This document shows, piece after piece, positions 35,752 to 59,521 of a stretch of DNA of 64,000 nt. The stretch lies in assembly GCF_006715395.1 (NCBI RefSeq), contig NZ_VFNC01000002.1, positions 2,728,001-2,792,000 of the forward strand, in the 5' to 3' direction. This DNA is from Streptomyces sp. SLBN-31 (GTDB lineage: Bacteria; Actinomycetota; Actinomycetes; Streptomycetales; Streptomycetaceae). The notes under the pieces were generated by a model. That model was not told the DNA's origin, did not search any database, and was given only the letters and a program-made list of their open reading frames with translations. The translations under genes and the position numbers were made by a program. The stretch's first letter is position 1, and the number at the start of each line of letters is the position of its first letter.

Positions 35752-36297
35752 TCACCGCACCCCGCTCTCCTCCAGCGCCGCCTTCAGACTGCGCAGGGCG
35801 TAGTAGACCCGTGACTTCACCGTGCCCTGCGGGACGCCCAGTGCCTCGGCCGCCTGCTGGGTGGTGCGGTCCGCGAAGATGGTCGCGCGCAGGGCCTCGC
35901 GATGGGCCGGCGTCAGGGAGCGCAGGGCGTCCTGCACCACGATCGACGACAGCATCCGTTCGATGTCGTCCGCCTCGGCGCACATGTCGCTCAGCCAGGA
36001 GTTGCCGCTGATCTCCGTCGGCCGCGCTGTTTTCGTCCGGTGCGCGTCGATGACGAGGTTGCGGGCGACCCGGAACATCCACGGCCGTACGGCCATGCCC
36101 TCGCTGTCGGCGAGGGTCTGCTTGTTCCAGCAGCGCAGCAGGGTCTCCTGGAGGATGTCCTCGGTGCGGTGGGTGTCTCCCCCCAGCATGCGCAGCACGT
36201 ACGAGTAGAGCGCCGGGCCGTGTTCCAGGTAGAGGTCCCGCAGCGCCCGTTCCTGCGGGGAGACCGCGCTCGCGGATCCGATGACCGTCACGTTCAT
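35752..36297 (-). CDS. ECF-type RNA polymerase sigma factor
   Basis: A 181-residue sigma factor with only regions 2 and 4. Region 2 holds RDLYLEHGPALYSYVLRMLGG, EDILQETLLRCW and RPWMFRVARNLVID. Region 4 has LTPAHREALRA and the helix-turn-helix QQAAEALGVPQGTVKSRVYYALRSL. No anti-sigma gene adjoins it. The ATG at 36297 follows CAGGAGCACACC; longer in-frame starts are not supported. It is convergent with the SARP at 32660 and stands at the edge of the type IV-like cluster. It is the best candidate to read the eight TTGAACC/CGTTGT promoters described separately (inference). Confidence 0.93.
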   Translation of the reverse strand: MNVTVIGSASAVSPQERALRDLYLEHGPALYSYVLRMLGGDTHRTEDILQETLLRCWNKQTLADSEGMAVRPWMFRVARNLVIDAHRTKTARPTEISGNSWLSDMCAEADDIERMLSSIVVQDALRSLTPAHREALRATIFADRTTQQAAEALGVPQGTVKSRVYYALRSLKAALEESGVR

Positions 36298-36448
36298 GGT
36301 GTGCTCCTGCTCCTCGGGGCGGCCTGCCCCGGCCCGTGGACGGGGGGCGGGGCCGCCTGGAGCTCGGAGTGTTGCGACGGGCGATGCACATTCGTTCGAC
36401 GAGCGGGCCACACGGCGATTGACGACCGGTCCACACGGTGGACGGATC

Positions 36449-36475
36449 GATATACGCGCAGGTCGCGGGCGTCAA
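36449..36475 (-). promoter_or_regulatory. Possible housekeeping promoter for the ECF sigma gene
   Basis: On the minus strand TTGACG, a 15-base spacer, then TATATC. The spacing is short. The TTGAACC/CGTTGT motif is not found here, so no sign of simple autoregulation by that motif is seen. Confidence 0.3.
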
Positions 36476-36494
36476 AGGCGGGCCCGGGGCGTGG

Positions 36495-37694
<1,200 letters not shown>

Positions 37695-37705
37695 GGTGTT
37701 CCTCC

Positions 37706-38578
37706 TCAAGGAGTGGGGGTGAGGGACTCGGTGGGGACGGCGGTGGGCAGCGAGGTCTGGATGCCGGTGGGGATGGGCGTGCCGGACGGGATGGCGGCGA
37801 CCCCCGCGTACTTGGCGAACTGGGCGCGTACGGCGGCGACATAGCCCTGCGCCTCCGCGGTCCTGGGCACGCCCTTGGCGGCGCGGACGGCGTCCATCCC
37901 GACGTCGTAGCCGGCGAGGGCGAGGTCCAGGACGCTGCCGGTGGCCTCGTTGGCGTCGATCATCTTCTGGGCCTCGTCGGCCATGGCGCAGATGTAGCGG
38001 CCCTGCGCCATGATCGAGTCCTTCGCGTCCAGCGCGGAGGTCTTGCCGTTGTCGTCGTCGTCCTTGCCGTACTTGGTGAAGATGTCGGGCGGCAGCTGCG
38101 AGATGCCCTGCTTGCCGTCGGGGCCGACCAGGGAGGCGTTGAAGCCGGACGCCTTCTCGATCTGTGAGGCGATCACGATCGGCCCGATGGCGCCGCACAG
38201 TTGGCCGGCCTTCTGGACGGGGTCGACCAGGTCCTCGGGGACCGTGGAGGTGTCCAGGTCGCCGTGGCCGTCCCCCTGGAAGACAGCCAGCACCGAGCTC
38301 GCGTCGCTCGGGCCGGGCACGTCGCCGCCCCCGCCACCGCCGCCGAAGACGCTGTGGAAGAGCAGGTAGACCGCGATCAGCGGGGCCAGCAGGACGCCGA
38401 ACCCGCAGAACACGATGACGATGACGGTACCGCCGGCCAGACCGAGCGGGAACAGCAGACAGCCCGCGCCGCCGGCCGCGATCGCCGTGTTCCTGACGGC
38501 CTTCGACTGCCCCTCCTCGTCCGGCTGAACCGGTGCCGGTGCCGCGGGGCCGCCCTGCTCGCCCGTCTCCACGCCCAT
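37706..38578 (-). CDS. Membrane-anchored lytic-transglycosylase-like (SLT) protein
   Basis: A 290-residue protein with a short cytoplasmic N-terminus and one or two strong transmembrane helices (about 30-75). A Gly run is followed by an SLT/goose-lysozyme-like domain: GPIVIASQIEKASGFNASLVGPDGKQGISQLPP. T4SS-associated VirB1-like enzymes open peptidoglycan for the channel. The residue that is the catalytic Glu in canonical ESGF motifs is Ala here (KASGF), with a Glu two residues earlier, so activity is doubtful. First gene of a two-gene operon behind an ECF-type promoter. Confidence 0.8.
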   Translation of the reverse strand: MGVETGEQGGPAAPAPVQPDEEGQSKAVRNTAIAAGGAGCLLFPLGLAGGTVIVIVFCGFGVLLAPLIAVYLLFHSVFGGGGGGGDVPGPSDASSVLAVFQGDGHGDLDTSTVPEDLVDPVQKAGQLCGAIGPIVIASQIEKASGFNASLVGPDGKQGISQLPPDIFTKYGKDDDDNGKTSALDAKDSIMAQGRYICAMADEAQKMIDANEATGSVLDLALAGYDVGMDAVRAAKGVPRTAEAQGYVAAVRAQFAKYAGVAAIPSGTPIPTGIQTSLPTAVPTESLTPTP

Positions 38579-38603
38579 GGGTGTCCGCCTTCTTCCCCTC
38601 GCC

Positions 38604-38633
38604 TTGAACCGCTGTGCCTGGACGGCCCGTTGT
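38604..38633 (+). promoter_or_regulatory. ECF-type promoter P1 (plus strand)
   Basis: TTGAACC at 38604, 17-base spacer, CGTTGT at 38628. It drives the 38702 gene and the following type IV-like operon, with a leader of about 60 bases. It faces P2 on the opposite strand, so the two would produce short overlapping antisense leaders. Confidence 0.75.
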
Positions 38634-38657
38634 GCTGTCCGTCGGGCTCGGCAGATC

Positions 38658-38686
38658 GAAACGGGCCTCAGAGCAAATAAGTTCAA
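38658..38686 (-). promoter_or_regulatory. ECF-type promoter P2 (minus strand)
   Basis: On the minus strand TTGAACT (38686-38680), 16-base spacer, CGTTTC (38663-38658). It drives the lytic-transglycosylase-like operon. Confidence 0.6.
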
Positions 38687-38701
38687 AACGGTGGAAACCA
38701 A

Positions 38702-39550
38702 ATGAGTCAGAGCAGCGGACGTACGAGGCAAGAGGGGGGCGGGGCACACATGGGCACACCGTCGGCGACGCCGTCGGGCCGGGGAGGTTGGGTGCGGGGG
38801 CCGAAGTCCCCGCAGCCGGCTCCCCCGCCTCCCGCGCCCCAGAGCGAGGGCGCCGGTCCGGCCGTGCGGTCGCCGCACGTCGGCCACGGCGTCGGCGTCG
38901 CACCGGCGCCGGTCCCCGTACCGGCCACCGTGTCCGCGACCCCCGTCCACACCGCGGCCACCACCGCCGTACAGCCGGCCGCTTCCCCCCACGCCCCGAG
39001 CCGCACCAGCGCTCAGCCCGCCGTCCAGCCCCGCACCCGGCGCCTCTCCGCAGCCCCCGCCGCCGAGCCCGCCTGGGGTGAGCCCCGGCGGCCGAGGTCG
39101 GCCCGGGGCCGGTCGCGGAACGAGGTCGGCTGGGTCAAGGCGCACGGCGGCGCCGGGGTGACCTCGCTGGTCGAGGTGCTCGGCGGCGTGGACGTGGGGG
39201 CGCGCTGGCCCGATCCGTCCCGGGGCGAGCCGCGACGGGTCGTGCTGGTCGGGCGGACCAGTGCGCGCGGACTGCGGGCGGTTTCCCAGGCGTTGGGCTC
39301 GCTGCACGACGGCAGGGCCCCGCAGGGGCTGGAGTTGCTGGCCGTGGTCCTCGTCGCCGACGCGCCCGGCCGGCTGCCGCTGGGCCTGCTGCGCCGGGTC
39401 CGGGTGCTGCGCTCCGCCACCCGGGTGCAGCGGGTGCCGTGGATTCCGGCGTGGCGCACCGGCGGCAGGCCGAAGGTGCTGCCCCGGCAGTTCGACAGGC
39501 TCGCCGAACTGGTGGGAAGCGAGCTGTACGCCGAGGGGGCCGCGTCATGA
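38702..39550 (+). CDS. Cluster protein with ParA-like remnant fold (DUF6668-like)
   Basis: A 282-residue protein. The first 120 residues are a Pro/Ala-rich disordered region. The C-terminal domain begins NEVGWVKAHGGAGVTSLVEVLGG, resembling a deviant P-loop (GGAGVTS) of ParA/MinD-like ATPases without the invariant Lys, then strands PRRVVLVGRTSARGL and LLAVVLVADAPG. The pattern resembles DUF6668-type proteins that accompany these secretion-like loci in Streptomyces; the DUF number is from memory. It is the first gene after promoter P1. Its stop overlaps the next ATG (ATGA), so translation is coupled. Confidence 0.7.
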   Translation: MSQSSGRTRQEGGGAHMGTPSATPSGRGGWVRGPKSPQPAPPPPAPQSEGAGPAVRSPHVGHGVGVAPAPVPVPATVSATPVHTAATTAVQPAASPHAPSRTSAQPAVQPRTRRLSAAPAAEPAWGEPRRPRSARGRSRNEVGWVKAHGGAGVTSLVEVLGGVDVGARWPDPSRGEPRRVVLVGRTSARGLRAVSQALGSLHDGRAPQGLELLAVVLVADAPGRLPLGLLRRVRVLRSATRVQRVPWIPAWRTGGRPKVLPRQFDRLAELVGSELYAEGAAS

Positions 39551-39831
39551 CGCGTGCCCTGCCGGTCGCCCGGTTCCTGGCCGACACCTACACCCCGCCC
39601 GAGGGCGCGCACACGATCATCAACACCCTCGCCTGGTGCGTCACGGCCGCCGGTGTCTTCGGCCTGATGGCCGTCGGCATCAACATGGCGGTCCAGCTCA
39701 ACCGGGGTGAACCGGGCGAGGGCGGCGCGCACTTCCGCGGTGTCTTCTTCGTCGCGCTGGCCTGTCTGGTCGCCGCGACGGCCGGTCCGCTCGTCACGTT
39801 CCTCGGCGACCTCTCCCTCCTCGGGCCGTAG
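39547..39831 (+). CDS. Small VirB2/TrbC-like membrane protein, 94 aa
   Basis: A 94-residue protein with two hydrophobic helices (about 22-45 and 68-88) joined by a short polar loop (QLNRGEPGEGGAHFR), the size and topology of VirB2/TrbC pilins. There is no cleavable signal like that of Gram-negative pilins. The ATG overlaps the stop of the preceding gene by the ATGA arrangement. It is similar in layout to the 39936 gene (RGE-containing loop in both), suggesting an ancient duplication. Role as a channel or pilus subunit is inferred from topology and context only. Confidence 0.72.
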   Translation: MTRALPVARFLADTYTPPEGAHTIINTLAWCVTAAGVFGLMAVGINMAVQLNRGEPGEGGAHFRGVFFVALACLVAATAGPLVTFLGDLSLLGP

Positions 39832-39935
39832 GCCCGCCGCCTCTCCCGGGCCGTTGGCCCGCCGCACACCTTCCTTACCGACAGCCATCCCTCGCCCGCC
39901 GATCGCGCGGGGCACTGATTCCACGGAGATCTCCC

Positions 39936-40223
39936 ATGTCCTCACTGCTCATCGAAGCCTCCAACTTCCTTGCCGCCGACGTGCCCCAGCCGGTGAGCAA
40001 CGCCCCCGGCGAGCTGTCCACCAAGGTCAACACCGTTCTCGGCATCGTCGCCTGGGCGGGCACCGCGGCCGGCGTGCTGGGCGTGCTGATCACCGGCGCG
40101 ATGATGGCCGTCTCCCTCAAGCGCGGCGAGAGCTCGGAGCACATGAGCCGCCTCGGCATGGTGCTCGGCGGCTGCGTGCTGGTCTCCACCGCCGGGCCGC
40201 TGGTCGGCTTCGTCTTCAACTGA
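39936..40223 (+). CDS. Small VirB2/TrbC-like membrane protein, 95 aa
   Basis: A 95-residue protein with two helices (about 33-60 and 72-92) around a polar loop with LKRGESSEHM. The leader region (LLIEASNFLAADVPQPV) is amphipathic. Paralogous in layout to the preceding small gene. ATGTCC follows GGAGATCTCCC. It is the better VirB2-type pilin candidate because of the N-terminal segment before the first helix. Confidence 0.75.
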   Translation: MSSLLIEASNFLAADVPQPVSNAPGELSTKVNTVLGIVAWAGTAAGVLGVLITGAMMAVSLKRGESSEHMSRLGMVLGGCVLVSTAGPLVGFVFN

Positions 40224-40240
40224 GCAGGCGGACGGTCGAG

Positions 40241-40990
40241 ATGCTCATGCGCAGGCAGCGCCGGACCGAGCCGTCCGGGCCGTACTGGAAGCAGCGCAAC
40301 TGGCAGTTGTCGGCGGGGTTCCTCGCCGTCGTGGTGCTGCTCGGCGGGTTCGTCGCGCTCACGTCCGACGGTGACGGCGCGAAAGCGGCGGCGGCCGAAG
40401 GCCCGCTGTCCCACGGCTCCGTGCTGAAGAGCGGCCGGCCCAAGGGCTGCGCCACCGACGACAGCGCGGGCGGCGCGCTGCCCAAGTCGGCGCCCAAGGA
40501 CATCAGTTGGCACACGCTCGGGATCGCCCGGGTGCCCGTCTCCGCCTCGGCGGGGCCCACCCGGACGACCGGCCCGATGCGCTGGTGCTACGCGCACACG
40601 CCCGTCGGTGCCGCGCTGGCCGCGACCGTCATCCCGTCCCAGATGAGCGGGTCCGGCTGGAAGACGGTCAGCCGGCAGCAGGTGGTGTCGGGGCGTGGGC
40701 GCGACCTGTTCGAGTTCCAGCGCGCGACCGTCCAGGACATCGACAGCGCCGCGCAGAGCGGCGGCACCTCCGCCGGCTCGTACGCCGGCTTCTCGGTGAC
40801 GTCGTACACGCGCGGGGCGGCGAACGTCAGTCTGCTGATCAGGACCGGTCAGGGATATGCGACGACCACCATCGCGCTGCGCTGGAGCGGCGGCGACTGG
40901 AAGGTCGTACCCGACGACGGCGGGTCCCTGCACACGCCGGTGACGACGGTTCAGGGCAGCCCCTCCGGCTACGTCCTGTGGGAGGTGTGA
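40241..40990 (+). CDS. Bitopic secretion-cluster protein (possible VirB8/TcpC analogue)
   Basis: A 249-residue protein: basic cytoplasmic start (RRQRRTEPSG), one transmembrane helix (LSAGFLAVVVLLGGFVAL), then an extracytoplasmic domain of about 200 residues with WHTLGIARVPVSASAGP, MRWCYAHTPVGAALAA and SLLIRTGQGYATTTIALRW. The topology and the order in the operon are those of VirB8-type assembly factors, but I see no sequence signature, so this is inference. It starts at ATG 40241 just after the pilin-like gene and ends one base before the polytopic gene. Confidence 0.75.
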   Translation: MLMRRQRRTEPSGPYWKQRNWQLSAGFLAVVVLLGGFVALTSDGDGAKAAAAEGPLSHGSVLKSGRPKGCATDDSAGGALPKSAPKDISWHTLGIARVPVSASAGPTRTTGPMRWCYAHTPVGAALAATVIPSQMSGSGWKTVSRQQVVSGRGRDLFEFQRATVQDIDSAAQSGGTSAGSYAGFSVTSYTRGAANVSLLIRTGQGYATTTIALRWSGGDWKVVPDDGGSLHTPVTTVQGSPSGYVLWEV

Positions 40991-40991
40991 G

Positions 40992-42218
40992 ATGAACTGC
41001 GGTTCGACCGGGAATCCGGTCTTCGACCTGGCGAAGGGCTTCTTCGACTTCCTCGGCGACCCCATCGGGACCATCGTCGAGCTGATCGCGAAGACGATCC
41101 TCGCGGGCGCGATCGCGGTGTTCGGGGCCCTGACCACCGGGGTGCCCACGCTGACGGGGACGACCACGGCGAAGGACGTCAACGGCCAGACGCAGTGGCT
41201 CGTCGTCTATCTCGCGGTCGGCTCGCTGCTGTTCGCGTCCGCCCGCATGGCCATCGAGCGGCGCGGCACGGCGGGGACCACCGCGCTCAAGGGCATGCTG
41301 CGGGTCATCGCGGTCTCCGGCGGCGCCACCACGATCGTCACGGCCGCGGCCGCCGTCGCGGACGACTACTCCACGCACCTGTTCAACGCGGGCGCCCAGG
41401 ATGTGCTGACGAAGGTCGGCGCCTGCTCCAACGGTTCCAATATCGAGGCGTTCCTGCTCCTGATCCTGGCCTTCCTGCTGCTGATCGCCGGGATCATCCA
41501 GACGATCCTGATGTACATCCGGCTCGGCGTCATGATCCTCCTGCTCGGCACGCTCCCGCTGGCCGCTGCGGCGTCCATGACCGACTGGGGCGGCGGCTGG
41601 TGGCGCAAGCACATCGGCTGGATGATCGCGTGGCTGCTGTACAAGCCCGCGGCCGGTCTCGTGCTGTACGCGGGATCGCAGATGATCGTGTCGAGCCAGA
41701 CCGGCGGCCAGGGCGGCAACGCGGTCAACGAACGCATCGCCGGTATCGGCGTGATGCTGCTGTCCGCGGTGGCACTGCCCGCGCTGCTGAAGCTGGTGGT
41801 GCCCGCGACCGCCGCGCTCGGCGGTGCGTCCGCGTACTCCGGTGCGATGCAGTCGGTGGGCGGCGGCCTGGCCACCGGAGCCCGGTCGCTCGGCGGCAGC
41901 GGCGGGTCCGGCGGCCAGGGCAGCCCCGGTCCGAGCGGCGCGTCCGGCGGCTCCGGCGGCTCGGGGGCGTCCGGCGCGAGCGGCTCGGACGGCGCGGGCG
42001 GAGCCTCGGGCGGCGGCAAGTCGTCGGCCGGCGGTGGGTCCGCTGCCGGTGGCGGAGGCGCGGCGAGCGGGGCCGGCCGGGCCGCGGCCGGCGGACCGGC
42101 CGGTGTGGCCGTCGCCGCGGCGGTGACGGCGGCGCAGGTCGTCGGCAGAGCCGCCTCCGGTGCCCTGGAGGGCGCCGACGGCGACCAGGGCCACAACCCG
42201 AGCCCGCAGCACCGCTGA
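40992..42218 (+). CDS. VirB6/TrbL-like polytopic membrane protein
   Basis: A 408-residue protein with six or seven hydrophobic segments between residues 30 and 280. These include FLLLILAFLLLIAGIIQTIL, the charged SMTDWGGGWWRKHIGWMIAWLLYKPAAGL stretch, and a late helix ending LLKLVVPATAALGG. The last 130 residues are a Gly/Ser/Ala-rich tail. Order, topology and the W-rich amphipathic turn are as in VirB6/TrbL/TraL channel proteins of actinobacterial T4SS-like loci. It starts one base after the preceding stop (GTGTGAGATGA), so translation is tightly coupled. Confidence 0.8.
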   Translation: MNCGSTGNPVFDLAKGFFDFLGDPIGTIVELIAKTILAGAIAVFGALTTGVPTLTGTTTAKDVNGQTQWLVVYLAVGSLLFASARMAIERRGTAGTTALKGMLRVIAVSGGATTIVTAAAAVADDYSTHLFNAGAQDVLTKVGACSNGSNIEAFLLLILAFLLLIAGIIQTILMYIRLGVMILLLGTLPLAAAASMTDWGGGWWRKHIGWMIAWLLYKPAAGLVLYAGSQMIVSSQTGGQGGNAVNERIAGIGVMLLSAVALPALLKLVVPATAALGGASAYSGAMQSVGGGLATGARSLGGSGGSGGQGSPGPSGASGGSGGSGASGASGSDGAGGASGGGKSSAGGGSAAGGGGAASGAGRAAAGGPAGVAVAAAVTAAQVVGRAASGALEGADGDQGHNPSPQHR

Positions 42219-42388
42219 ACCCGGCGGCGGCCGGTTCGAAGCGTGCCGCCGCCCCCGGAACGGGCCGCCGGACTCCCGCTCCCCCCGGAGAGTCCGGCGG
42301 TCCTCCCCGCTCTGCGATCGCCCCGCCCCGACCCGGCCCAGCGCCGTGGCCGTACGCCGTATCACCTCACGAAGGGAAACCGGACCCC

Positions 42389-43882
42389 ATGTCCACGGAA
42401 GCCGTCACTCATCCGACCTACGGGAACTGGCGCCGGCCACGGCGGCCGGGGCTCGGGCCGCTCGGGCTCGTCGGCACGTTCGGTGTCTTCGGCGGGCTCG
42501 TCGTCACCCTGCTCGCGTCCCTGATCTCGCTGTACGCGGCGCTGGTCGTGCTCGTCCCGGTCGTGCTGTTCCTGACGCCGCTGGCCCTGCGCACCCAGGA
42601 CGGGCGCAACGTCTACCAGTTGCTCGCCCTGCGCATCGGCTGGCGCAGCCGCAAGGCCAAGGGCGCGCACCTGTACGTCTCCGGGCCGCTGTCCGCGCGG
42701 CCGGGCGGCCGGTTCCGCCCGCCGGGGCTGCTCAACAAGGTCGCGGCCATCGAGGGCCGGGACGCCTACGAGCGTCCCTTCGGCGTGCTGCACCATCCGG
42801 CGCGCAACCTGTACACGATCGTGCTGGGCTGCGACCCCGACGGCGGCTCGCTGGTCGACCCCGACCAGGTCGACGTCTGGGTCGCCCTGTGGGGCGAGTG
42901 GCTGGCCCGGCTGTCCCACGAACCCGGGCTGCGCGGCGCCTCTTTGATCGTGGAGACCGCGCCCGACCCCGGCACCACCCTCGCCCACGAGGTGCTGCCG
43001 CGCATCCGCCCCGACGCACCGCCCGCGGCCCGCGCGGTGATGGAGGAGGTCGTCGAGCGCTATCCGACCGCCTCCTCGGAGATGCACACCTACGTCACCC
43101 TCACCTACGGCATGCCCGCTGGGCAGAAGCGCAGCAAGGAGGACGTGATCACCGACCTGGCCATCCGTATCCCCGGCCTGCTCAGCGGGTTGGTGGCGGC
43201 CGGCGGCGGGGCCGCGTACCCGCTGTCGGCGGAGCGGATCGCGGAGGTCGTGCGGGTCGCGTACGACCCCGCGGTCGCCGCCGACGTCCTCGACGCGCGC
43301 GCCACGTACGGCGGTACGGGCCTGGAGTGGGAGGACGCCGGGCCGGCCGCCGCCGTGGAGACCGTGGGCAGTTACCAGCACGACTCCGGGGTGTCCCGGA
43401 CCTGGCTGCTGACGCTGGCACCGCGCGGCACCGTACGGTCCTCGGTCCTGCGGGGTCTGCTGGAGGCGTCGCCCGGTACCCGCCGCAAGCGGGTCGCGCT
43501 GGTCTACCGGCCCATCGACCCGGCCACCTCGGCGCGGATCGTCGAGGCGGACCGGCGTGCCGCCCAGTTCATGGCGACGTCGGGGCGGGGCATGGTGCAG
43601 GCGCGGGCGGCCTCCGAGATGCGCGCCGCCGAGCAGACCGCGGCGGAGGAGGCGTCGGGCGCCGGGCTCGTGGAGTTCTCGCTGATGCTGACGGTCACCG
43701 TCGACGACATGGACCAGCTGGCGGACGCGACCGTCGCCGTACGGAACCTGACCGCGGCCTCCCGGGTGCTGATGCGGCCCGCGGACCGGATGCAGGCGGC
43801 CGCGTTCGCCTGCACGCTGCCCGCCGGGATCCTTCCGTGGGAGCAGACCCTGATCCCGCACGAGCTGCAGGAGGCGCTGTGA
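42389..43882 (+). CDS. SCO6880-family protein (VirB3/VirB4 N-terminus-like)
   Basis: A 497-residue protein of the family named after S. coelicolor SCO6880. The N-terminus TYGNWRRPRRPGLGPLGLVG precedes two transmembrane helices (about 28-68), like PrgI/VirB3. A large cytoplasmic domain follows with features of the VirB4/TrbE N-terminal half (TYVTLTYGMP, RTWLLTLAPRGTV, MLTVTVDDMDQLADATVAVRNL, ACTLPAGILPWEQ). It lacks a P-loop. The next gene, overlapping by four bases, supplies the ATPase half, so VirB4 appears split in two here. The ATG follows GAAGGGAAACC. Confidence 0.88.
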   Translation: MSTEAVTHPTYGNWRRPRRPGLGPLGLVGTFGVFGGLVVTLLASLISLYAALVVLVPVVLFLTPLALRTQDGRNVYQLLALRIGWRSRKAKGAHLYVSGPLSARPGGRFRPPGLLNKVAAIEGRDAYERPFGVLHHPARNLYTIVLGCDPDGGSLVDPDQVDVWVALWGEWLARLSHEPGLRGASLIVETAPDPGTTLAHEVLPRIRPDAPPAARAVMEEVVERYPTASSEMHTYVTLTYGMPAGQKRSKEDVITDLAIRIPGLLSGLVAAGGGAAYPLSAERIAEVVRVAYDPAVAADVLDARATYGGTGLEWEDAGPAAAVETVGSYQHDSGVSRTWLLTLAPRGTVRSSVLRGLLEASPGTRRKRVALVYRPIDPATSARIVEADRRAAQFMATSGRGMVQARAASEMRAAEQTAAEEASGAGLVEFSLMLTVTVDDMDQLADATVAVRNLTAASRVLMRPADRMQAAAFACTLPAGILPWEQTLIPHELQEAL

Positions 43883-47418: not shown

Positions 47419-47811
47419 TCAGGGGGACACCGCCACCGCCGTGCCGAAGGCGACGGTCGAGGACAGGAACCAGCCGAACGACGGGGCGAGCAGGTGTCGT
47501 ACGGTCCACAGCCGGGCCGTCGCGGGCCGCTCGCGTACGAAGACCACGGGCACGGTGCGGCCGAGCGGCGGCAGCCCGCACAGCGGCGCGTAGGCCCCCG
47601 GATCGAGGACGAGGTCGCGCCCGAGGTGGTCGGAGAAGGCGACGAGGCCGCCGAGCCGCCGGTCGGCCGCCGTACGCGCGGTGACGACGCCCATCACACG
47701 CAAACCGCGCGCCCACAGCCGCCCGGCCGTCAGGAGGCCGCGGGCGGCGAGCAGCAGACAGCCGAGTCCGAACCCCGTGCACAGGGCTGTCAGCACCAAC
47801 TCCGCGTCCAT
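47419..47811 (-). CDS. Small membrane protein, DUF3592-like
   Basis: A 130-residue protein with an N-terminal helix (LVLTALCTGFGLGCLLLAA), a soluble segment GLRVMGVVTARTAADRRLGGLVAF...LVLDPGAY...VPVVFVRERPATARL, and a C-terminal helix. This is the layout of DUF3592-type proteins. Function unknown. It has its own ECF-type promoter (P3), back to back with P4, and so belongs to the same regulon by sequence. It is convergent with the coupling-protein gene. Confidence 0.72.
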   Translation of the reverse strand: MDAELVLTALCTGFGLGCLLLAARGLLTAGRLWARGLRVMGVVTARTAADRRLGGLVAFSDHLGRDLVLDPGAYAPLCGLPPLGRTVPVVFVRERPATARLWTVRHLLAPSFGWFLSSTVAFGTAVAVSP

Positions 47812-47857: not shown

Positions 47858-47886
47858 ACAACGGACCGCGGCCCACCCCGGTTCAC
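47858..47886 (-). promoter_or_regulatory. ECF-type promoter P3 (minus strand)
   Basis: On the minus strand GTGAACC (47886-47880), 16-base spacer, CGTTGT (47863-47858). One mismatch in the -35. Drives the 130-residue membrane protein. Confidence 0.6.
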
Positions 47887-47901: not shown

Positions 47902-47931
47902 TTGAACCACCGTGCACGGCACCCCCGTTGT
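47902..47931 (+). promoter_or_regulatory. ECF-type promoter P4 (plus strand)
   Basis: TTGAACC at 47902, 17-base spacer, CGTTGT at 47926. Drives the NlpC/P60 gene at 47980 and lies 15 bases from the -35 of P3. Confidence 0.75.
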
Positions 47932-52229: not shown

Positions 52230-52258
52230 ACAACGGGCCGCATGGACGAGCGGTTCAA
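52230..52258 (-). promoter_or_regulatory. ECF-type promoter P5 (minus strand)
   Basis: On the minus strand TTGAACC (52258-52252), 16-base spacer, CGTTGT (52235-52230). Drives the 52191-49119 operon, back to back with P6 with 10 bases between the -35 elements. Confidence 0.75.
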
Positions 52259-52268: not shown

Positions 52269-52297
52269 TTGAACCGCGGCCGGTGCGCGCACGTTGC
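52269..52297 (+). promoter_or_regulatory. ECF-type promoter P6 (plus strand)
   Basis: TTGAACC at 52269, 16-base spacer, CGTTGC at 52292. Drives the DUF4913 gene at 52343. Confidence 0.7.
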
Positions 52298-52342: not shown

Positions 52343-52816
52343 ATGACCACTCAGACGTCCGAGGCCCCCGCCACCGCGGAAGGCACCGGCACGGAATCGG
52401 ACCGGCCCGCTGTCCAGCCCCAGCCGCCCGCTCCCCCGCAGTTCATCCTGTATCTCCAGGGCGCCGAGTACGGGCAGACGCTGCGCCGCCTCACCCTCTG
52501 GGTGCACAACGTGCTGCTCCCCGTCTACGGCAGGGAGGTCACCTCCAACTCCCCCTGGTGCGGCCGCTGGTGGGAGCACCACGAGGCTGTGGCCCAGCTG
52601 CACGGCCTGTGGCTGGCCTGGGGGGAACTGACCGGCCCCGACGGCGGAATGACCGGACCGGCCTCATGGCACCGGGACTACCTCGGTCCCGTGATGGCCT
52701 CGCTTCGGGACCCGCAGGGCCCGTTCGCGGGGTGCAAGAGCGGCGGACACCGGGGGAAGCAGGCCCCGCCCGTCGATGCCATGGACCCGTTCGGCCCGCC
52801 GCCGGGGGCGGCCTGA
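52343..52816 (+). CDS. DUF4913-domain protein
   Basis: A 157-residue soluble protein with the DUF4913 pattern: FILYLQGAEYGQTLRRLTLWVHNVLLPVYGRE, then WCGRWWEHHEAVAQLHGLWLAWGEL, WHRDYLGPVMASL and GPFAGC near the end. The domain is unannotated in function. In Streptomyces it recurs beside TraG/VirD4-like genes of conjugative or secretion-like loci, which agrees with this position. Flanks are disordered and Pro-rich. It has its own ECF-type promoter P6. Confidence 0.85.
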   Translation: MTTQTSEAPATAEGTGTESDRPAVQPQPPAPPQFILYLQGAEYGQTLRRLTLWVHNVLLPVYGREVTSNSPWCGRWWEHHEAVAQLHGLWLAWGELTGPDGGMTGPASWHRDYLGPVMASLRDPQGPFAGCKSGGHRGKQAPPVDAMDPFGPPPGAA

Positions 52817-52847: not shown

Positions 52848-52876
52848 TTGAACCGCGCCCGCGCGTGGCCCGTTGT
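52848..52876 (+). promoter_or_regulatory. ECF-type promoter P7 (plus strand)
   Basis: TTGAACC at 52848, 16-base spacer, CGTTGT at 52871. Drives the membrane protein gene at 52910, leaving a leader of about 27 bases. Confidence 0.75.
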
Positions 52877-52909: not shown

Positions 52910-54286
52910 ATGAGCCGGGACGAAGAGACGCAACACTTCTCGGTCGTCATCGCCGCCGACGGCTCCGCCGCCATCGACGGGGTACCCGTACGGGCCGCCG
53001 ACGGGGAGTCCGTCGACTCGGCGATCCTCGACGCGCTGCACGGGTACGCGAGCGACCGCGACGCCACTGTCACGGCGGCGATTTCCGATCCCGCAGTGGA
53101 GCAGGTGACCTTCGTCGAGGTCGCTCCCGACGGTTCCAGCAGGCTGGTGGAACGGCCGCACGAAGAGCCCGCCGGCGAGGTGGGGCGGGCCGTACCGGTC
53201 GAGCGGGCGGGCGCGGTGGCCTACGGCGGGTTGCCCGAGGAGCCCCTTCCCGATGCCGCTTCGGAAGCGGACGACCTGGCCGACACGGACGATACGACCG
53301 ACCTGGACGGCGGGGACGGCGACGGGCGGTACGCGCTGCGGCAGCCCCCGGGCGTCCCGCCCGTGCCCGGGCACCTGCTGCGCCGCCCCAAGCCCGAGGC
53401 CGGCAGCACCTCGCGTCAGTCCGACGACGAGTACCGGGCCTCCGGCCTGCTCCATCGCCCGCTGGTCGTCGGGCCGGTGGCGCTCGGAGTGGCGGCTCTG
53501 GTCGTCGTACCGCTGGTGCTGCTGGGCAGCGGAGGATCGGGCGGTGGGCAGAACAAGGCCGCCGGTGCCAGCGACGAACTGAGCAAGTCACCGTCGAGCC
53601 AAGGTCCTTCGTCCACACCGACGCCGACCGTCTCCGTGTCGCCCAGCCTGCTGTCCCCGTCGCCCAGCCCCTCGCCGACGGGGAAGGGCAAACGCGGGAC
53701 GAAGGGCAAGAAACACACCGACGGCGCCACGGGCGTGACCACCACGGTGACCGTACGGCCCCCGGCGGCCACGGCGACCGTGACCGCCAAGCCCGCAGCG
53801 GACACCGCCGCCACCGCAGTAAACCGGCTCGCCAGGAACGACCCCGGACGGCACATCTGCTACCGCGCGTACGTCTCCGGGCAAGGCTGGCAGAAACCCG
53901 TGTGCGACGGCACGGTGGCCGGTACGACGGGTCAGAACCGGTCGATCAAGGCGCTCAACATCGCGGTGCGCGGAACGAGTGGCACGGCCGCCAACGCCTT
54001 CGTCCACAAACCCGGTTCGGCCGACGGCAAGGGTGTGTGGATGCCGCACTGGACGGCCAACACCGCCGACGGCAAGGACATCTACATCGGCCACGCGAAG
54101 AAGAGTGCCCCGAACATGCTCGGGTTCGCCATCAACATCGGCAGCGGCGGACAGGTCTGCCAGTCCGCCCGCGTCCACAACTCCGGCTGGGGACAGTGGG
54201 GTTGTGTCGGCCCGCGGCCCGAGTACGTCTTCGGCGGCACCCTCACCAACGATGTGTGGCTGGAGGCGGTCAAGTTCAGCGTGTGA
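52910..54286 (+). CDS. Bitopic protein: shared cluster N-terminal domain plus extracellular hydrophobic-W-like repeats
   Basis: A 458-residue membrane protein. Residues about 8-80 match the N-terminal domain of the 36495 gene product (AAIDG, a YA-x-x-R helix, and EV-x-PDGSSR). An acidic linker leads to one transmembrane helix (VVGPVALGVAALVVVPLVLLG, about 188-208), then a Ser/Thr/Pro-rich stalk. The C-terminal 150 residues contain two repeats resembling clostridial hydrophobic-W units (SGQGWQKPVCDGTVAGTTGQ, and NSGWGQWGCVG), probably binding wall or surface ligands. With the N-terminus inside, the shared domain would face the cytoplasm. Expressed from promoter P7. Confidence 0.8.
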   Translation: MSRDEETQHFSVVIAADGSAAIDGVPVRAADGESVDSAILDALHGYASDRDATVTAAISDPAVEQVTFVEVAPDGSSRLVERPHEEPAGEVGRAVPVERAGAVAYGGLPEEPLPDAASEADDLADTDDTTDLDGGDGDGRYALRQPPGVPPVPGHLLRRPKPEAGSTSRQSDDEYRASGLLHRPLVVGPVALGVAALVVVPLVLLGSGGSGGGQNKAAGASDELSKSPSSQGPSSTPTPTVSVSPSLLSPSPSPSPTGKGKRGTKGKKHTDGATGVTTTVTVRPPAATATVTAKPAADTAATAVNRLARNDPGRHICYRAYVSGQGWQKPVCDGTVAGTTGQNRSIKALNIAVRGTSGTAANAFVHKPGSADGKGVWMPHWTANTADGKDIYIGHAKKSAPNMLGFAINIGSGGQVCQSARVHNSGWGQWGCVGPRPEYVFGGTLTNDVWLEAVKFSV

Positions 54287-54398: not shown

Positions 54399-57398
54399 GT
54401 GAACGCAGCGAACTCGACCGACTTACGTTTCTCCGTGCTGGGGCCCGTCCGGGCCTGGCACGCGGACCGAGAGCTGGATCTCGGTTCTCCGCAGCAGCGG
54501 GCCGTGCTGGCCGCGCTGCTCCTGCGGCGTGGGCACCCCGTCTCGCTCGCCGAACTCGTCGACGCCGTCTGGGGTGTCGAGCCTCCGACGGCCGCCGTAT
54601 CCGTTCTGCGCACCTATGTCTCGCGGCTGCGCAAGGTGCTGGAACCCGGCCGCGGCCCGGAGGACCCGCCCCGGACGATCGTCTCGGTCGGTGACGGCTA
54701 CCGGGCCTGCATCCCGGAACAGGCCCTGGACCTGACCGTGTTCGAACGCCGCACGGCGGACGCGGCGAAGGCGGCCGCCACGGGCGAGGTGTCCACCGCC
54801 GCGCGGCTGCTGCACGACGCCCTCGATGGGTGGCCGGGCGCGGCACTGGCCGGCCTGCCCGGCCCGCTGGCCGAGTCGGAGCGGGCCCGGCTGGCCGAGG
54901 AGCGGCTGAGCGCGCTGGAGATCCGCCTGGACCTCGACGTCCGGCTCGGCCGCCACGGCCAGGTGATCGCGGAACTGATGTCGTTGACCGGTGAGCACCC
55001 GCTGCGCGAGGAGCTGTGCCGGCTGCTCATGCTGGCCCTGTACCGGTCCGGGAGGCAGGCGGAGGCCCTTGCCGCGTACCGCAGGACCCGCGCGACGCTG
55101 GTGACGGAACTGGGCATCGAACCCGGCGCCCCCTTGCGGGACCTGCACGCCCGCATCCTGGCGACCGACGCGAGCCTGGGCGCAGGGGCTTCCTCGTGGA
55201 CGACGCCGGGCGGGAGTTCCCCGCAGGAGCCACCGGTCCCCGCCGCCCCTCAGCCCCCGGAGACGCAGTCGTCTTCCGCACCGGCCGGCGTGGCCACGGC
55301 ACCCGCCACACCGCCTTCGCCCGCCCCCCGGACGAAGACCTCCGAGCGCCCCGCGCGCCGTCCGGCCTACGCCCCGCGTCTCGCCCAACTCCCGGCGGAC
55401 CTGCCCACCTTCACCGGCCGCGAGGCCGAACTGAAGGCGACACTGGGCATGTTGCCGCTCGACGGGAGCGCTCCCGCCACGCTCGTCATCAGCGCGATCG
55501 GGGGCATGGCGGGCGTCGGCAAGACGACCCTGGCGGTGCACCTGGCGCACCGGGTCGCCGCCCGCTTCCCCGACGGACAACTCTGCGTCAACCTGCGCGG
55601 TTTCGACCCGACCGGCTCGGTGATGAGTTCGCAGGAGGCCATCCGCGTACTGCTGGACGCCCTGGGCGTCCCCCCGCAGCGACTGCCCGCCGGCCTTGAG
55701 GCGCAGACGGCGCTCTACCGCAGCGTCCTCGCGGAGCGTCGCGTGCTGATCCTGCTCGACAACGCCCGCGACGCCGAACAGGTCCGCCCGCTGCTGCCCG
55801 GCTCCCCCGGCTGCTTCGTCATCGTCACCAGCCGCAACCAGCTCACCGGCCTGGTCGCCGGTGAGGGAGCGCACCCGCTGACACTGAACCAGCTGACGCC
55901 CGCCGAGGCCCACGAGTTCCTGGCCCGCCGGCTCGGCGCCGCACGCCTGGAGCGGGAACCGCGGGCGGTGGACGAGATCATCTCGCGTTGCGCGCTGCTG
56001 CCGCTGGCCCTCGCCGTGGTCGCCGCCCGCGCCGCCACCCACCCCGACTTCCCGCTCAGCGCCATCGCGGAGGAACTGCGGGACAGCGACGACAGCCTCG
56101 ACGCGTTCGCGGGCGACGACATCACCATCGACGTACGCACGGTGTTCTCCCTGTCGTACGAGGCCCTGTCCGCGCCGGCCGCACGGCTGTTCCGGCTGCT
56201 GGGCCTGCACGCCGGCCCGGACCTGTCCTCACCCGCGGCGGCCGCGCTCGCCGGACTCACCCCGCGCGAGACCCGCGGCCTGCTCGTCGAACTGACCAGG
56301 GCCCACCTGCTCACCGAGTACTTCCCCGGCCGGTACACCCTGCACGACCTGCTGCGCGTCTACGCCGCCGAGCGCGTCCGCGCCGAGGAGTCACCGCGGG
56401 ACCGGGACCTGGCGGTGGAGCGGCTGCTGTCCTGGTACCTGCACACGGCGGCCGCGGCCTACCCCCTGATCACCCCGAACCGCAACCCGATCCCCCTCGA
56501 CCCGCCGCCGGCCTCCTGCCGCCCCCTGTCGTTCACGACCCTCGACCAGGCCGTGGACTGGTGCGAGACCGAACGATCCAACCTGGTCGGCGCGGTCCAC
56601 CAGGCGGCCGACTCCGGGCAGCCGGGCATCGCCTGGCGCCTGCCCGCCGTCCTGTGGGGCTTCTTCTACCTCCGCAGCCACCTGGGCGACTGGCTCGACA
56701 CCACCCGCACGGGCCTGTCCGCGGCCCGTGCCGCGCAGGACAGCCGGGGAGAGTCACAGGCTCTCGCGGACGCGGCCGCGGCGCTGCGCAGCAACGGCCG
56801 CTTCGACGAGGCCATCGAGCTCTTCCACCGGTCGATCGCCGTCTGCCGCGAACTCGGCGACATGGACGGCAGATTGCGCGCCGTGGGCAACCTCGGGGAC
56901 GCCTACCTCCAGACCGGCCGGCTGGACAAGGCCGTCGAATACAGCCGCCGGGGGCTGGCCCTGGACCGGATCGTCGGTGACATCTGGGGAGAGGGCATCG
57001 CCCTGAGCAACCTGGGAGACGCCTACCAGCGGCTCGGCCGGTTCGACGACGCCGTCGACTGCCTGGAGCAGGCCCTGACCGTGCTGCGCGCGAGCGGTAA
57101 CCGCTGGGTCGAGGGGGTCGCCCTCGACGTACTCGGCACGGTCCACCACCGGTTGGGGGCCCGTGACCGTGCGGTCGAGTACTACCGGCAGGCGCTCGAC
57201 GCGCACCGGGACATCGGCAACCGGTGGGGAGAGGGCCACACCCTGGGCCACCTCGGTGACGTTCAACTGGCCGCCGGCGAACCGGAGGCGGCCGACGGCA
57301 GCTGGCGTCAGGCCCTGGGTGTCTTCGCGGAGTTCGACCATCCGGACGCCGCGAAGATCCAGGAAAAGCTGCGCTCCCTTCAGCTCGCCTCGCGGTAG
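54399..57398 (+). CDS. SARP-NB-ARC-TPR regulator, right flank of the secretion-like cluster
   Basis: A 999-residue paralog of the 32660 regulator. It has a winged helix (LRFSVLGPVRAW ... QQRAVLAALLLRRG ... TYVSRLRKVLEP), a BTAD domain, a Pro/Ser linker, and NB-ARC with Walker A GGMAGVGKTT near residue 368 and LILLDNARD. TPRs follow at about 780-990, with regular GD-x-x-GE repeat caps (GDIWGEGIALSNLGDAYQRLG, NRWGEGHTLGHLGDVQ). Sequence between the two is conserved over most of the length, including STDLP-like PADLPTFTGREAEL. Its 3' end overlaps the convergent glucanase gene by 19 bases. Confidence 0.9.
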   Translation: MNAANSTDLRFSVLGPVRAWHADRELDLGSPQQRAVLAALLLRRGHPVSLAELVDAVWGVEPPTAAVSVLRTYVSRLRKVLEPGRGPEDPPRTIVSVGDGYRACIPEQALDLTVFERRTADAAKAAATGEVSTAARLLHDALDGWPGAALAGLPGPLAESERARLAEERLSALEIRLDLDVRLGRHGQVIAELMSLTGEHPLREELCRLLMLALYRSGRQAEALAAYRRTRATLVTELGIEPGAPLRDLHARILATDASLGAGASSWTTPGGSSPQEPPVPAAPQPPETQSSSAPAGVATAPATPPSPAPRTKTSERPARRPAYAPRLAQLPADLPTFTGREAELKATLGMLPLDGSAPATLVISAIGGMAGVGKTTLAVHLAHRVAARFPDGQLCVNLRGFDPTGSVMSSQEAIRVLLDALGVPPQRLPAGLEAQTALYRSVLAERRVLILLDNARDAEQVRPLLPGSPGCFVIVTSRNQLTGLVAGEGAHPLTLNQLTPAEAHEFLARRLGAARLEREPRAVDEIISRCALLPLALAVVAARAATHPDFPLSAIAEELRDSDDSLDAFAGDDITIDVRTVFSLSYEALSAPAARLFRLLGLHAGPDLSSPAAAALAGLTPRETRGLLVELTRAHLLTEYFPGRYTLHDLLRVYAAERVRAEESPRDRDLAVERLLSWYLHTAAAAYPLITPNRNPIPLDPPPASCRPLSFTTLDQAVDWCETERSNLVGAVHQAADSGQPGIAWRLPAVLWGFFYLRSHLGDWLDTTRTGLSAARAAQDSRGESQALADAAAALRSNGRFDEAIELFHRSIAVCRELGDMDGRLRAVGNLGDAYLQTGRLDKAVEYSRRGLALDRIVGDIWGEGIALSNLGDAYQRLGRFDDAVDCLEQALTVLRASGNRWVEGVALDVLGTVHHRLGARDRAVEYYRQALDAHRDIGNRWGEGHTLGHLGDVQLAAGEPEAADGSWRQALGVFAEFDHPDAAKIQEKLRSLQLASR

Positions 57399-58960
57399 GC
57401 CCGACCGGCGGCGTTCGCGGTCGTACCGTCGTAGAGGCCGGTCGGACTGGTCGTGGTGGACAGGGTGAACCAGGCGTAGCGCTCGACGTAGTCCAGGCCG
57501 TCCAGCATTCGCGTGGAGGAGTTGATGAAGTCGGTCTCCTCCTGCTGGCTGGGGTAACGGGGGGTGGCCTGGGAGAAGTCGATCAGGCCGTACTCCGTCA
57601 GCCAGATCGGCTTGTGGTAGCGGTCGTGGACGCGCTGGATGTACTGGCTGAGCTGGTTGACCGCGTCGGGTCCGAAGTCGGCGCCGTACCAGTGCAGGGG
57701 AATGAAGTCGACGCGCAGGCCGCGCTGTTCGGCTCCCTGCATGAAGCGGTCCAGCCAGCCGCCGGGGGTGTCGGCGCCGGAGGCGACGGCGGGAGCACCG
57801 AGCCGCATGCCGGTGCTCTGCAGCCGGGGCCACAGGTCCAGCGCCTGCTCCACTGTCATGTCGGCCTGCGAGCCGGAGTCGGGCTCGTTGAACCCGAGCA
57901 GCTCACTGCCCTCGCGCTTGGCGCTGCCGAGCTGCTCGTCGGTGACGGAGCCGGGACCCCAGATCATCGGGACGTACTCGACCCCGTCCGGCTTGATGAC
58001 ACTGCCGGTCGACGAAGCCCAGTTGAAGTACCAGGAGGCCTTGGAGTCGACGAGCGCCTGGGAGGCACCGTCGACGGGGTTGAGGCTGACGCCCTTGCGG
58101 GTGGAGGTGGCGGGGTGGTTCGTGGTGGTACCAGGATCGGAGGTACTGGGACTGTTCGCCCCGTTGAAGGTGACGGTCATGCCACTGCACTTGGTGCACT
58201 GGTACATGGTCCTGTTACCGGGCTCCGCATCCTGCTTGGACCACGCATAGGCAGTAGGGCATTTCTGGTTGACGAAGTCGCTGTAGGAGGTCTTGGCATC
58301 CCGATTGGGATTCACGCACACCAACGACTTCCCCGACGCCGGGTCCTTGACGAGATCCTCGGCCGGACAGGCGGACAGCAGATCAACGGCACACCCGGCC
58401 GCCGCGCACTCCCCGGTCTCGGGCGGGGTCATGTCGTTCGGGGTGATGGTGACGGCGGCGGAGACGGCGTCGACGTAACTGACGTCGTACCAGGGCGCGA
58501 GGGAGTCACTGGGGTCGAAGTTGAACTCGGCGAGGCTGGTGGGCTGTTGCCCGGTGGAACAATGATCCGCATACGGCCCACAGTCACCGACCGCGCAGTG
58601 GAAGGTACTGCCGTCGTCCCCGGAACACCCCTGCCGGGCGAAGAAGGTACCGCGCCAGTGCCCGGCGCCCTCACGCTCGGGGACGGTGAGGGTGGCGGAC
58701 TGCCCCGGCTCGAGAACGGGCAGCCCGGTCAACGCGGCAGACCCGTCCGCGTTGACATTACTGCCCACCCAGATACGACTGTCGGTCCTGTTCTGCAGCG
58801 TGATGGTGTGCTCCGCGTTGCCGACGTCGGCGGCGGGCGCGCCTCGGAGCCGGTCGGCGTCGGAGTGCCGGCCACTGAGACCGACGGCGGTCGCGGCGGT
58901 CGCCCCGACGACAACCAGTAACAGGACCAACAGGATGGAACGTCTGCGTATAAAACGCAT
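57380..58960 (-). CDS. Secreted thaumatin-like domain fused to a GH128-type beta-1,3-glucanase
   Basis: A 526-residue exported protein. After a basic signal/anchor (MRFIRRRSILLVLLLVVVG) comes a thaumatin-like beta domain of about 200 residues with many cysteines (HTITLQNRTDSRIWVGSN, RQGCSGDDGSTFHCAVGDCG, CAAAGCAVDLLSACP). The C-terminal barrel matches glycosyl-hydrolase catalytic core GH128: KGVSLNPV, WYFNWASS, LLGFNEPD with the acid/base Glu, FIPLHWYGAD and WLTEYGLID with the nucleophile Glu. GH128 cleaves beta-1,3-glucan, a fungal wall polymer. The ATG at 58960 has GAGAGG upstream. An ECF-type promoter lies about 350 bases upstream. Confidence 0.88.
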   Translation of the reverse strand: MRFIRRRSILLVLLLVVVGATAATAVGLSGRHSDADRLRGAPAADVGNAEHTITLQNRTDSRIWVGSNVNADGSAALTGLPVLEPGQSATLTVPEREGAGHWRGTFFARQGCSGDDGSTFHCAVGDCGPYADHCSTGQQPTSLAEFNFDPSDSLAPWYDVSYVDAVSAAVTITPNDMTPPETGECAAAGCAVDLLSACPAEDLVKDPASGKSLVCVNPNRDAKTSYSDFVNQKCPTAYAWSKQDAEPGNRTMYQCTKCSGMTVTFNGANSPSTSDPGTTTNHPATSTRKGVSLNPVDGASQALVDSKASWYFNWASSTGSVIKPDGVEYVPMIWGPGSVTDEQLGSAKREGSELLGFNEPDSGSQADMTVEQALDLWPRLQSTGMRLGAPAVASGADTPGGWLDRFMQGAEQRGLRVDFIPLHWYGADFGPDAVNQLSQYIQRVHDRYHKPIWLTEYGLIDFSQATPRYPSQQEETDFINSSTRMLDGLDYVERYAWFTLSTTTSPTGLYDGTTANAAGRAYREAS

Positions 58961-59521
58961 AGAAAGCATGCCTCTCAGATCGCGCTTGCGGCGGATCGCA
59001 GACGATCGGACACCGCCTGCGGAGGCACGACGGATGCGGACGGGGGGGTGGTTCAGTTCGAAGCCGTCGGGCAGGGGCAGGAGGCTGGCCGGCAGAGGTG
59101 AGCAGGAGGGCTCCGAGGCCTGCAGGCGATCCGCCGCACCCTTTGCCTCCCGCCCCGAACCTGTCTCCCCGTCGATGACGGCCCTACGGCGACGCAACAG
59201 ACCGTGAGGACCGAGGCGAGGACGCGAGGACGTCCCCGCGGTCGAAGTGGGCGGCGTGAACACGAGCGCGACCTCCCGGCCTCGACGACGGACCGACATC
59301 GCCGGTCGTGTCCGCACAACGGGGCGGAGGCGGCTGGAGGTTCAAACGAACAGGATCGGCGGGGAACCCGAGACCAAAGATGCGGAACGTTTCCTCAGGT
59401 CAGCACCACTTCCTGTCATCACTCGATCGCGGGGAATCAATGACAGTCGCGCAACTGTCGGCTTCCGTACCGAGTTGCCCAGGTGCTCATGAGTTGATCA
59501 CCAGGAAGGCCCACCTTGGCC
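58961..59521. other. 561-bp intergenic region: promoter P8 and a long leader
   Basis: No convincing gene. It contains ECF-type promoter P8 on the minus strand at 59316-59345 and a leader of about 350 bases before the glucanase ATG. An open frame continuous with the glucanase runs through the leader up to 59317, but it lacks a ribosome-binding site and encodes low-complexity Arg/Pro sequence, so I treat it as untranslated. The right part (59400-59520) is lower in GC and would hold the promoter of the 59522 gene. Confidence 0.5.
59316..59345 (-). promoter_or_regulatory. ECF-type promoter P8 (minus strand)
   Basis: On the minus strand TTGAACC (59345-59339), 17-base spacer, CGTTGT (59321-59316). 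A perfect match to the cluster motif, upstream of the thaumatin-GH128 gene. Confidence 0.65.

Follow-up and report, generated by a model that had tools for sequence, protein, structure and literature searches.

A dedicated SigL-like ECF sigma factor regulon proposed for a type IV secretion-like gene cluster in Streptomyces sp. SLBN-31

A stretch of 64,000 nucleotides from Streptomyces sp. SLBN-31 (contig NZ_VFNC01000002.1, positions 2,728,001 to 2,792,000; hereafter the window) was analysed for a recurrent promoter-like motif, for the gene cluster resembling a type IV secretion system (T4SS) in which it occurs, and for the extracytoplasmic function (ECF) sigma factor gene at the edge of that cluster. 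Genes are numbered g1 (the ECF gene) to g18 as in Table 1. It is very probable, judging from the sequence, that the motif defines a dedicated regulon in which the SigL-like factor g1 would control a T4SS-like machine together with putative effectors. The regulon itself is well supported at this level, and delivery of the effectors is a strong lead; that the sites are transcribed, and are read by g1 over other sigma factors, we infer from the DNA. One sigma factor appears to switch on a machine resembling a secretion system along with its possible cargo of variable proteins, which includes a predicted NAD-destroying enzyme.

Promoter sites within and outside the cluster

The exact motif, TTGAACC-N15-18-CGTTGT, was counted six times in the window against a mean of 0.00 in 100 shuffles of the window. 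Genome-wide (9.47 Mb), TTGAACC-N16/17-CGTTGT has six matches, all inside the cluster. At least one exact match was found in 17 of the other 99 genomes searched, including G011 and G032, where two matches share a contig close to a related cluster. The shortened pattern TGAACC-N16/17-CGTTGT gave seven matches in the cluster and two in the rest of the genome, and the looser TGAACC-N16/17-CGTTG gave 19 in the genome, eight of them in the cluster, with one for the reversed control pattern. The matches are therefore concentrated at this locus and do not spread over unrelated intergenic DNA.

The initial annotation had listed eight sites, described as intergenic, pointing towards a gene start and having spacers of 16 or 17 bases. 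All eight were recovered where it had placed them, and the description holds for each by our own gene calls. The list was incomplete, as it overlooked a perfect site at 34854-34826(-) and did not include a weaker one at 59056-59027(-). Among the eight, five are exact, 47886(-) and 52269(+) carry one mismatch each, and 38686(-) carries three, with counterparts present in relatives. The AAC-containing -35 box, the CGT-containing -10 box, the spacer and the closeness to a start codon are those of ECF-type promoters. By our gene calls, the unit promoters leave 33-79 nt between the end of the -10 box and the start codon; for 38604(+) the gap grows to 116 nt with a g4 start at 38750, which the alignment of relatives favours. 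Between 36.5 and 59 kb we infer eight transcription units, and a site stands before each (Table 1); operon limits come from the same gene calls.

Two back-to-back pairs (47886/47902 and 52258/52269) and one facing pair (38604/38686) were borne out. The -35 starts of the facing pair are 82 bases apart, and the distance ranges from 82 to 92 bases across the 12 loci with two passing sites (own, G170, G145, G014b, G177, G144, G032, G161, L246-L249); in L198 the corresponding sites stand back-to-back instead. If transcription begins some 7 bases past each -10 box, the facing transcripts would share about 10 bases, and one polymerase would exclude the other. A facing promoter pair with nearly constant spacing is an unusual regulatory layout. 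At the 38604-type site, TGAACC and CGTNGT are kept in 12/12 loci, which were chosen for having a forward site there; in the alignment of these loci conservation is limited to the two boxes, and spacers and flanks vary.

One of the two sites outside the cluster, C2:318164(-), stands back-to-back with CTGAACC-N16-CGTCGT at C2:318172(+), in a pair lying within C2:316656-318690, 2.46 Mb from the cluster. The former lies 45 nt before a gene (316656-318089, 477 aa) whose product is 57% identical to a cluster-linked and site-linked protein in L186, with similar ones in L175 and L185. The latter lies 40 nt before a DUF4913 gene whose product is 58% identical to g15, and a family search of the genome found exactly two DUF4913 genes, g15 and this one. 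Over the 14 kb around the pair, TGAACC-N16/17-CGT was observed three times with 0.24 expected. This pair is the best indication that the motif acts in trans. A DUF4913 gene beside a divergent gene was considered as a general rule and rejected (10/26 with a visible neighbour). At the site C2:307793, the next called gene is about 700 bases further on.

The sigma factor and its co-occurrence with the sites

The g1 protein has sigma2 and sigma4 regions only (Pfam). Its best NCBIfam model is PRK09645 (193.1 bits, just below the cut-off of 202), and its best PDB match by sequence is Mycobacterium tuberculosis SigL (6dv9_F, E 2.8e-30, 108.6 bits; next match 53.6 bits), which makes SigL-RslA the system with the closest solved structure. 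SigL controls cell-wall, secreted or membrane proteins, a similarity to the present cluster, and is paired with the zinc anti-sigma factor RslA (PMC2877774, in the part available, including its cited titles); the targets of g1, in contrast, would be a T4SS-like cluster. No zinc anti-sigma protein (HxxxCxxC) was present among the called genes of the window beyond 30 kb. As none was seen beside it, g1 is on its sequence a SigL-like paralogue and no SigL orthologue, and how active it is probably depends on how strongly it is expressed, not on a sequestering partner. When 150 Streptomyces genomes were searched with g1, 15 cluster-type genes were found in 14 genomes (E 7e-54 or lower), along with a second group, a widespread paralogue about 50% identical to g1, which in SLBN-31 lies at C2:3704441-3704938 beside a ZAS-type anti-sigma gene. 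Region 4 separates the two groups (KSR versus RSR after GTV). In M. tuberculosis the SigL promoter consensus is TGAACC...CGT, with the TGAACC -35 box of the present sites.

Relatives of the cluster were located through the SCO6880-family gene g8, found in 20 of the 150 Streptomyces genomes; the genome collection held 120 g8 places, of which the best 80 were kept as loci. Every one of the 33 loci with a cluster-type ECF gene (at least 185 bits) contains a site that differs from the motif at no more than one position (mean 3.9 such sites), against 1/16 (mean 0.13) of the loci with enough flank and no ECF gene in view. In that single locus, L198, the ECF gene lies on the same contig at a distance of about 28 kb. 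Fifteen further loci, chiefly from Micromonospora, have a more distant ECF factor (36-47% in the Micromonospora clusters) and few sites, 0-3, and the remaining 16 were cut by contig ends or too short for judging. Genome G134 has two clusters, one with ECF gene and sites and the other with neither.

Ten plasmid copies were examined once the ECF/site rule had been set. In the five whose plasmid encodes a clade ECF (54-89% identity), between 2 and 7 sites pass at one mismatch or fewer: L246, with the ECF gene in place (89%), has six, and L247, L248, L249 and L250, with the gene elsewhere on the plasmid (67-71%; 54%) at 12-51 kb, have 2, 2, 7 and 3. The near-identical L251 and L252, together with L253 and L254, have no clade ECF and 0 sites, and L255 is intermediate, with ECF relatives of 47-53% only and two sites. 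The link to the sigma factor, offered in the initial annotation as an inference, is strengthened by this co-occurrence, by the plasmid copies and by the unlinked pair.

Conservation before orthologous genes, set beforehand as a test, was scored as GAAC-N17-20-CGT within 300 nt upstream in 52 ECF-positive loci, eight of which are cut before the ECF position. The pattern precedes g3 in 43/43, g12 in 35/35 and g11 in 28/28, so the test was passed; frequencies were 21/34 for g15, 30/42 for g4 and 9/12 for GH128. Where the ECF gene is absent they fall to 2/17 (g3), 1/17 (g4) and 1/16 (g15). Operon-internal controls gave 0/44 for g2, 1/45 for g5, 2/45 for g8, 11/49 for g9 and 9/48 for g10, the last two showing that the loose pattern has a background inside coding DNA.

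Several observations weigh against a dedicated regulon. The g8 tree puts the loci lacking both ECF gene and sites nearly all in one clade, so the Fisher p of 1e-11 is not to be taken as coming from independent loci; the tree test of co-occurrence holds one independent pair on supported branches and three in all, and on this evidence the contrast is one or a few evolutionary events. Among sites with at most one mismatch in ECF-positive loci, 126/199 have an acceptable start 8-190 nt downstream (crude caller). One perfect site, at 34854-34826(-), is intragenic and antisense to a SARP gene, and 59345(-) fits poorly. No site precedes the sigma gene itself, as had been noted from the start, and GAAC-N-CGT stands upstream of it in just 7/40 loci, near background; autoregulation through such a site is not supported.

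Function of the cluster and alternative explanations

Under the regulon reading, the sites would be -35/-10 elements of consensus TTGAACC-N16/17-CGTTGTG, read by RNA polymerase with g1. Active g1 would turn on the T4SS-like apparatus, with its VirB4/VirD4-type ATPases and VirB2-like and TrbL-like membrane proteins, and at once the wall-opening enzymes (transglycosylase-like g3, NlpC/P60 g12), the DUF4913 protein, the variable tail-bearing g13 and g14, the ChW protein and the secreted thaumatin-GH128 enzyme, as well as at least one unlinked gene pair. Gene g2 lies between g3 and the ECF gene on the same strand, 198 bases before the latter, and a scan of 36250-38750 for terminators and sigma-70 promoters found 0. 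Read-through along g3-g2-ECF could give positive feedback.

We further propose, tentatively, a quite possible role for g1 as master regulator of a T4SS that delivers proteins on cell contact and is found in Gram-positive, relaxase-less chromosomal clusters. The promoter would mark effectors genome-wide, and these would combine variable N-terminal domains, such as the CD38-like NADase of g13, with basic-ended disordered tails as the export signal. DUF4913 proteins, in many cases divergent from an effector gene across a back-to-back promoter pair, would be adaptor or immunity partners, the wall hydrolases would let the channel out, and the thaumatin-GH128 enzyme would open the fungal wall, so that fungi may be among the targets. 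If this is true, a 13-letter promoter becomes a finder of putative effectors, unlinked ones included, and the function of widespread actinobacterial clusters becomes testable through the deletion of one sigma gene.

The VirB4 and VirD4 ATPases of a T4SS are recognisable, from the Pfam families TraG-D_C and T4SS-DNA_transf and from weak VirB4 models; the VirB2-like TrbC match is weak (E 5.6e-4, below cut-off), and the putative VirB6-like and VirB1-like parts match no Pfam family. The predicted structure of g13 has a CD38-like/ADP-ribosyl-cyclase (ARC) fold in domain 1-248, followed by a disordered tail ending in KKGR. Residues W120, E136, W164 and E197, which we take from their pattern to correspond to the catalytic Trp and Glu of CD38, are invariant in 11/11, and g13 is predicted to be a putative effector of the CD38-like NADase type. 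The fold is that of polymorphic toxins such as Pantoea PANA_2924 and Streptococcus Tac1, which deplete NAD and are carried by type VI secretion system (T6SS), type VII secretion system (T7SS) or contact-dependent inhibition (CDI) modules with immunity genes (PMC12605009, in the part available). In g13, by contrast, the domain is N-terminal with a long tail after it, and no immunity gene was identified for it. The Xanthomonadales X-T4SS likewise combines a VirB/VirD4 machine with chromosomal effectors recognised via their C-terminal region; it is Gram-negative and has a full VirB set with core complex and a folded XVIPCD domain (available part of PMC6536674), whereas the present cluster is Gram-positive, with a minimal set, short disordered basic tails and putative delivery.

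A net charge of at least +3 in the last 15 residues was found in 25/44 site-linked variable genes (24/39 after removal of five antisense shadow frames), compared with 17/125 in the background and 3/82 site-linked core genes; the p of 3e-7 overstates independence, because families repeat among the 44. Low-complexity-tailed variable genes end in R after a Pro-rich tail in 20/44 cases at ECF-minus clusters, 30/69 at ECF-positive clusters and 1/7 in the background, so any signal in the tail would be independent of the sigma factor. A G-x(0-2)-R ending was rejected as tail signal, as the variable genes of ECF-positive (27/304) or ECF-minus (13/168) clusters did not stand out clearly from background (5/125).

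The regulon could be right and the apparatus could nevertheless move DNA by conjugation, the tail-bearing proteins being accessory and no effectors delivered, which is possible though somewhat doubtful. VirB4 and VirD4 are common to conjugation systems, and five of the ten plasmid records are relaxase-typed (L246, L247, L248 and L250 MOBP; L254 MOBF, MOBP), several of them as mobilizable with MOBP relaxases, so that a DNA-transfer role is possible for those copies. Against this, a search for PF03432, the one relaxase family looked for, found none in the genome, DNA transfer does not readily account for a CD38-like NADase fold in one of the co-regulated proteins, and the variable genes of the clade differ from strain to strain, as cargo does. 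Similar clusters of VirB4-like and SCO6880-like membrane genes are cmdABCDEF (SCO4126-4131) and SCO6871-6884 of S. coelicolor and SLP2.19-23; the cmd operon is tied to differentiation and chromosome segregation, SCO6878 or SCO6881 mutants have no visible phenotype, and, unlike here, no ECF or effector context is described for these clusters in the available part of PMC2782261. A 2025 T4SS review deals, as regards Streptomyces, with TraB conjugation (PMC12857230, in the part available). ECF regulons and T4SSs are each known, but searches of the open-access literature turned up no account of a VirB4/VirD4-type system in Streptomyces that combines a dedicated sigma factor with a candidate effector set.

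It is unlikely that the sites are ECF promoters read mainly by another factor, such as sigma-E or the near-universal SigL-like paralogue described above. Sigma-E targets of S. coelicolor have AAC and CGT boxes, 16-17 base spacers and wall-related functions, with similar sequences before sco1168 (CTGAACC...CGTCGT) and sco3397 (GTGAACC...CGTCCT), and overlap between ECF factors is noted (PMC6767563, in the part available). The sigma-E sequence is, by contrast, looser, with dozens of targets genome-wide and not one cluster, and the SLBN-31 genome outside the cluster holds almost no sites of the present kind. The paralogue is present in G040, G147, G178, G101 and G119, yet their clusters have 0 sites with at most one mismatch, and the 20 kb around it in three genomes contain one near-match only, with a 15-base spacer.

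Very unlikely, too, is that the boxes are operator half-sites of a DNA-binding regulator, for instance one of the two SARP-type proteins. SARP-NB-ARC-TPR genes do stand at both ends of the cluster, often also in relatives, and back-to-back sites form GGTTCAA...TTGAACC inverted repeats. The gap between back-to-back boxes, however, varies freely among loci, whereas within a site it is constantly 16-17 bases. Every site is oriented with its gene, its AAC and CGT cores match ECF promoters (see also PMC6767563, in the part available), and SARP is dispensable, as L172, L173 and L174 have sites and no SARP match in view. That a repeat or mobile element left the sites behind as copies with no promoter function is scarcely credible. 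They do group within a single accessory region, but conservation is confined to the two boxes, with variable spacers and flanks, and the sites keep fixed places before orthologous genes.

GH128 promoter, antisense site and other features

The initial annotation had placed the GH128 gene (g18) in the regulon through 59345(-). Its membership stands, by way of a different site. The gene starts near 58969, 57 nt past the weaker site 59056-59027(-) and 346 nt from 59345(-). Most relatives have a 59056-type site upstream of the GH128 start, at a distance of 74-166 nt, among them 5/5 Micromonospora loci with GH128, while 59345(-), among the GH128 loci listed, was seen in the own genome only. The gene is thus likely served by 59056(-) rather than 59345(-).

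The antisense SARP site is also present in L160, L168, L171, L176, L183 and plasmid L246. The rare ACA ACG codon pair that forms its -10 box is kept in 6/10 distinct relatives covering these codons (own included) and missing from the other four. Selection at the DNA level is likely, graded no higher because conserved Arg-Phe codons partly fix the -35 half, and the site might give an antisense RNA against the SARP regulator.

Table 1. Genes and promoter sites of the cluster, with the basis of each assignment.
Feature	Position	Strand	Basis
Perfect site, antisense in SARP gene 32660-35740	34826..34854	-	exact motif match
g1, SigL-like ECF sigma factor, 181 aa	35752..36297	-	Pfam Sigma70_r2 + r4
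g2, 399 aa	36495..37694	-	no Pfam match; N-terminal part resembles that of g16
g3, lytic-transglycosylase-like (VirB1-like)	37706..38578	-	no Pfam/NCBIfam match; label from plasmid copy only
Site TTGAACC-N17-CGTTGT for g4-g10	38604..38633	+	exact motif match
Facing site TTGAACT-N16-CGTTTC for g3-g2	38658..38686	-	counterparts in relatives
Operon g4-g10, T4SS-like	38702..47381	+	NCBIfam, Pfam TraG-D_C and T4SS-DNA_transf, plasmid annotation
g8, SCO6880 family	42389-43882	+	NCBIfam SCO6880_fam 509.8 bits
g9, VirB4-like ATPase	43879-45582	+	weak NCBIfam VirB4 models
g10, VirD4-like	45579-47381	+	weak NCBIfam VirD4 models
g11, small membrane-like protein	47419-47811	-	
Site GTGAACC-N16-CGTTGT for g11	47858..47886	-	upstream of g11 in 28/28
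Site TTGAACC-N17-CGTTGT for g12, back-to-back with 47886(-)	47902..47931	+	exact
g12, NlpC/P60 peptidoglycan hydrolase	47980..49023	+	Pfam NLPC_P60 E 3e-20
g13, putative effector, CD38/ADP-ribosyl-cyclase-like domain predicted (1-248)	49119..50915	-	
g14, variable protein, disordered tail ending RRRG	50983..52191	-	no Pfam match
Site TTGAACC-N16-CGTTGT for g14-g13	52230..52258	-	exact
Site TTGAACC-N16-CGTTGC for g15, back-to-back with 52258(-)	52269..52297	+	one mismatch
g15, DUF4913 protein	52343..52816	+	Pfam DUF4913 E 4.6e-26 (longer frame)
Site TTGAACC-N16-CGTTGT for g16, perhaps with g17	52848..52876	+	exact
g16, ChW-domain protein	52910..54286	+	Pfam ChW E 5.2e-10
g17, SARP-NB-ARC-TPR regulator, after g16 on same strand	54399-57398	+	Pfam BTAD, NB-ARC
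g18, thaumatin + GH128-type glycosidase, N-terminal hydrophobic stretch	57380..58969	-	Pfam Thaumatin, Glyco_hydro_cc
CTGAACC-N17-CGTCGT, likely GH128 (g18) promoter	59027..59056	-	conserved kind in relatives
Exact site well upstream of GH128	59316..59345	-	exact motif match

The label of g3 follows its positional counterpart on a plasmid copy, annotated as lytic transglycosylase domain-containing. Apart from g8-g10, the operon g4-g10 encodes a Pro-rich protein (DUF6668 in the plasmid annotation), two small TrbC/VirB2-like proteins, g6 and the TrbL-like g7. Among the 10 matches listed for g14, those with a named host are from Streptomyces only. A GCTCCG-type hexamer repeat at 37271-37315 in g2 encodes an Ala-Gly run.

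Outside the units of Table 1, TCCAACC-N17-CGTTGT at 62460-62489(-) precedes a SUKH-1 gene (61694-62437); it has two mismatches and may be chance. Pro-rich tails with a final Arg occur on unrelated proteins at the ECF-minus clusters L200, L205, L215, L221, L222, L226, L230, L236 and G040; these share in part an AxAAxL segment, and by eye one is kinase-, one FolD- and one glycosyltransferase-like. The structure model of the L186 variable family was poor (mean pLDDT 38.2) and was set aside, its glycosyltransferase-like start being a by-eye impression only. Genomes G127, G177 and G144 (L087/L088, L089/L090, L094/L096) carry a second SCO6880-type gene, 45-46% identical, on the opposite strand about 14 kb off.

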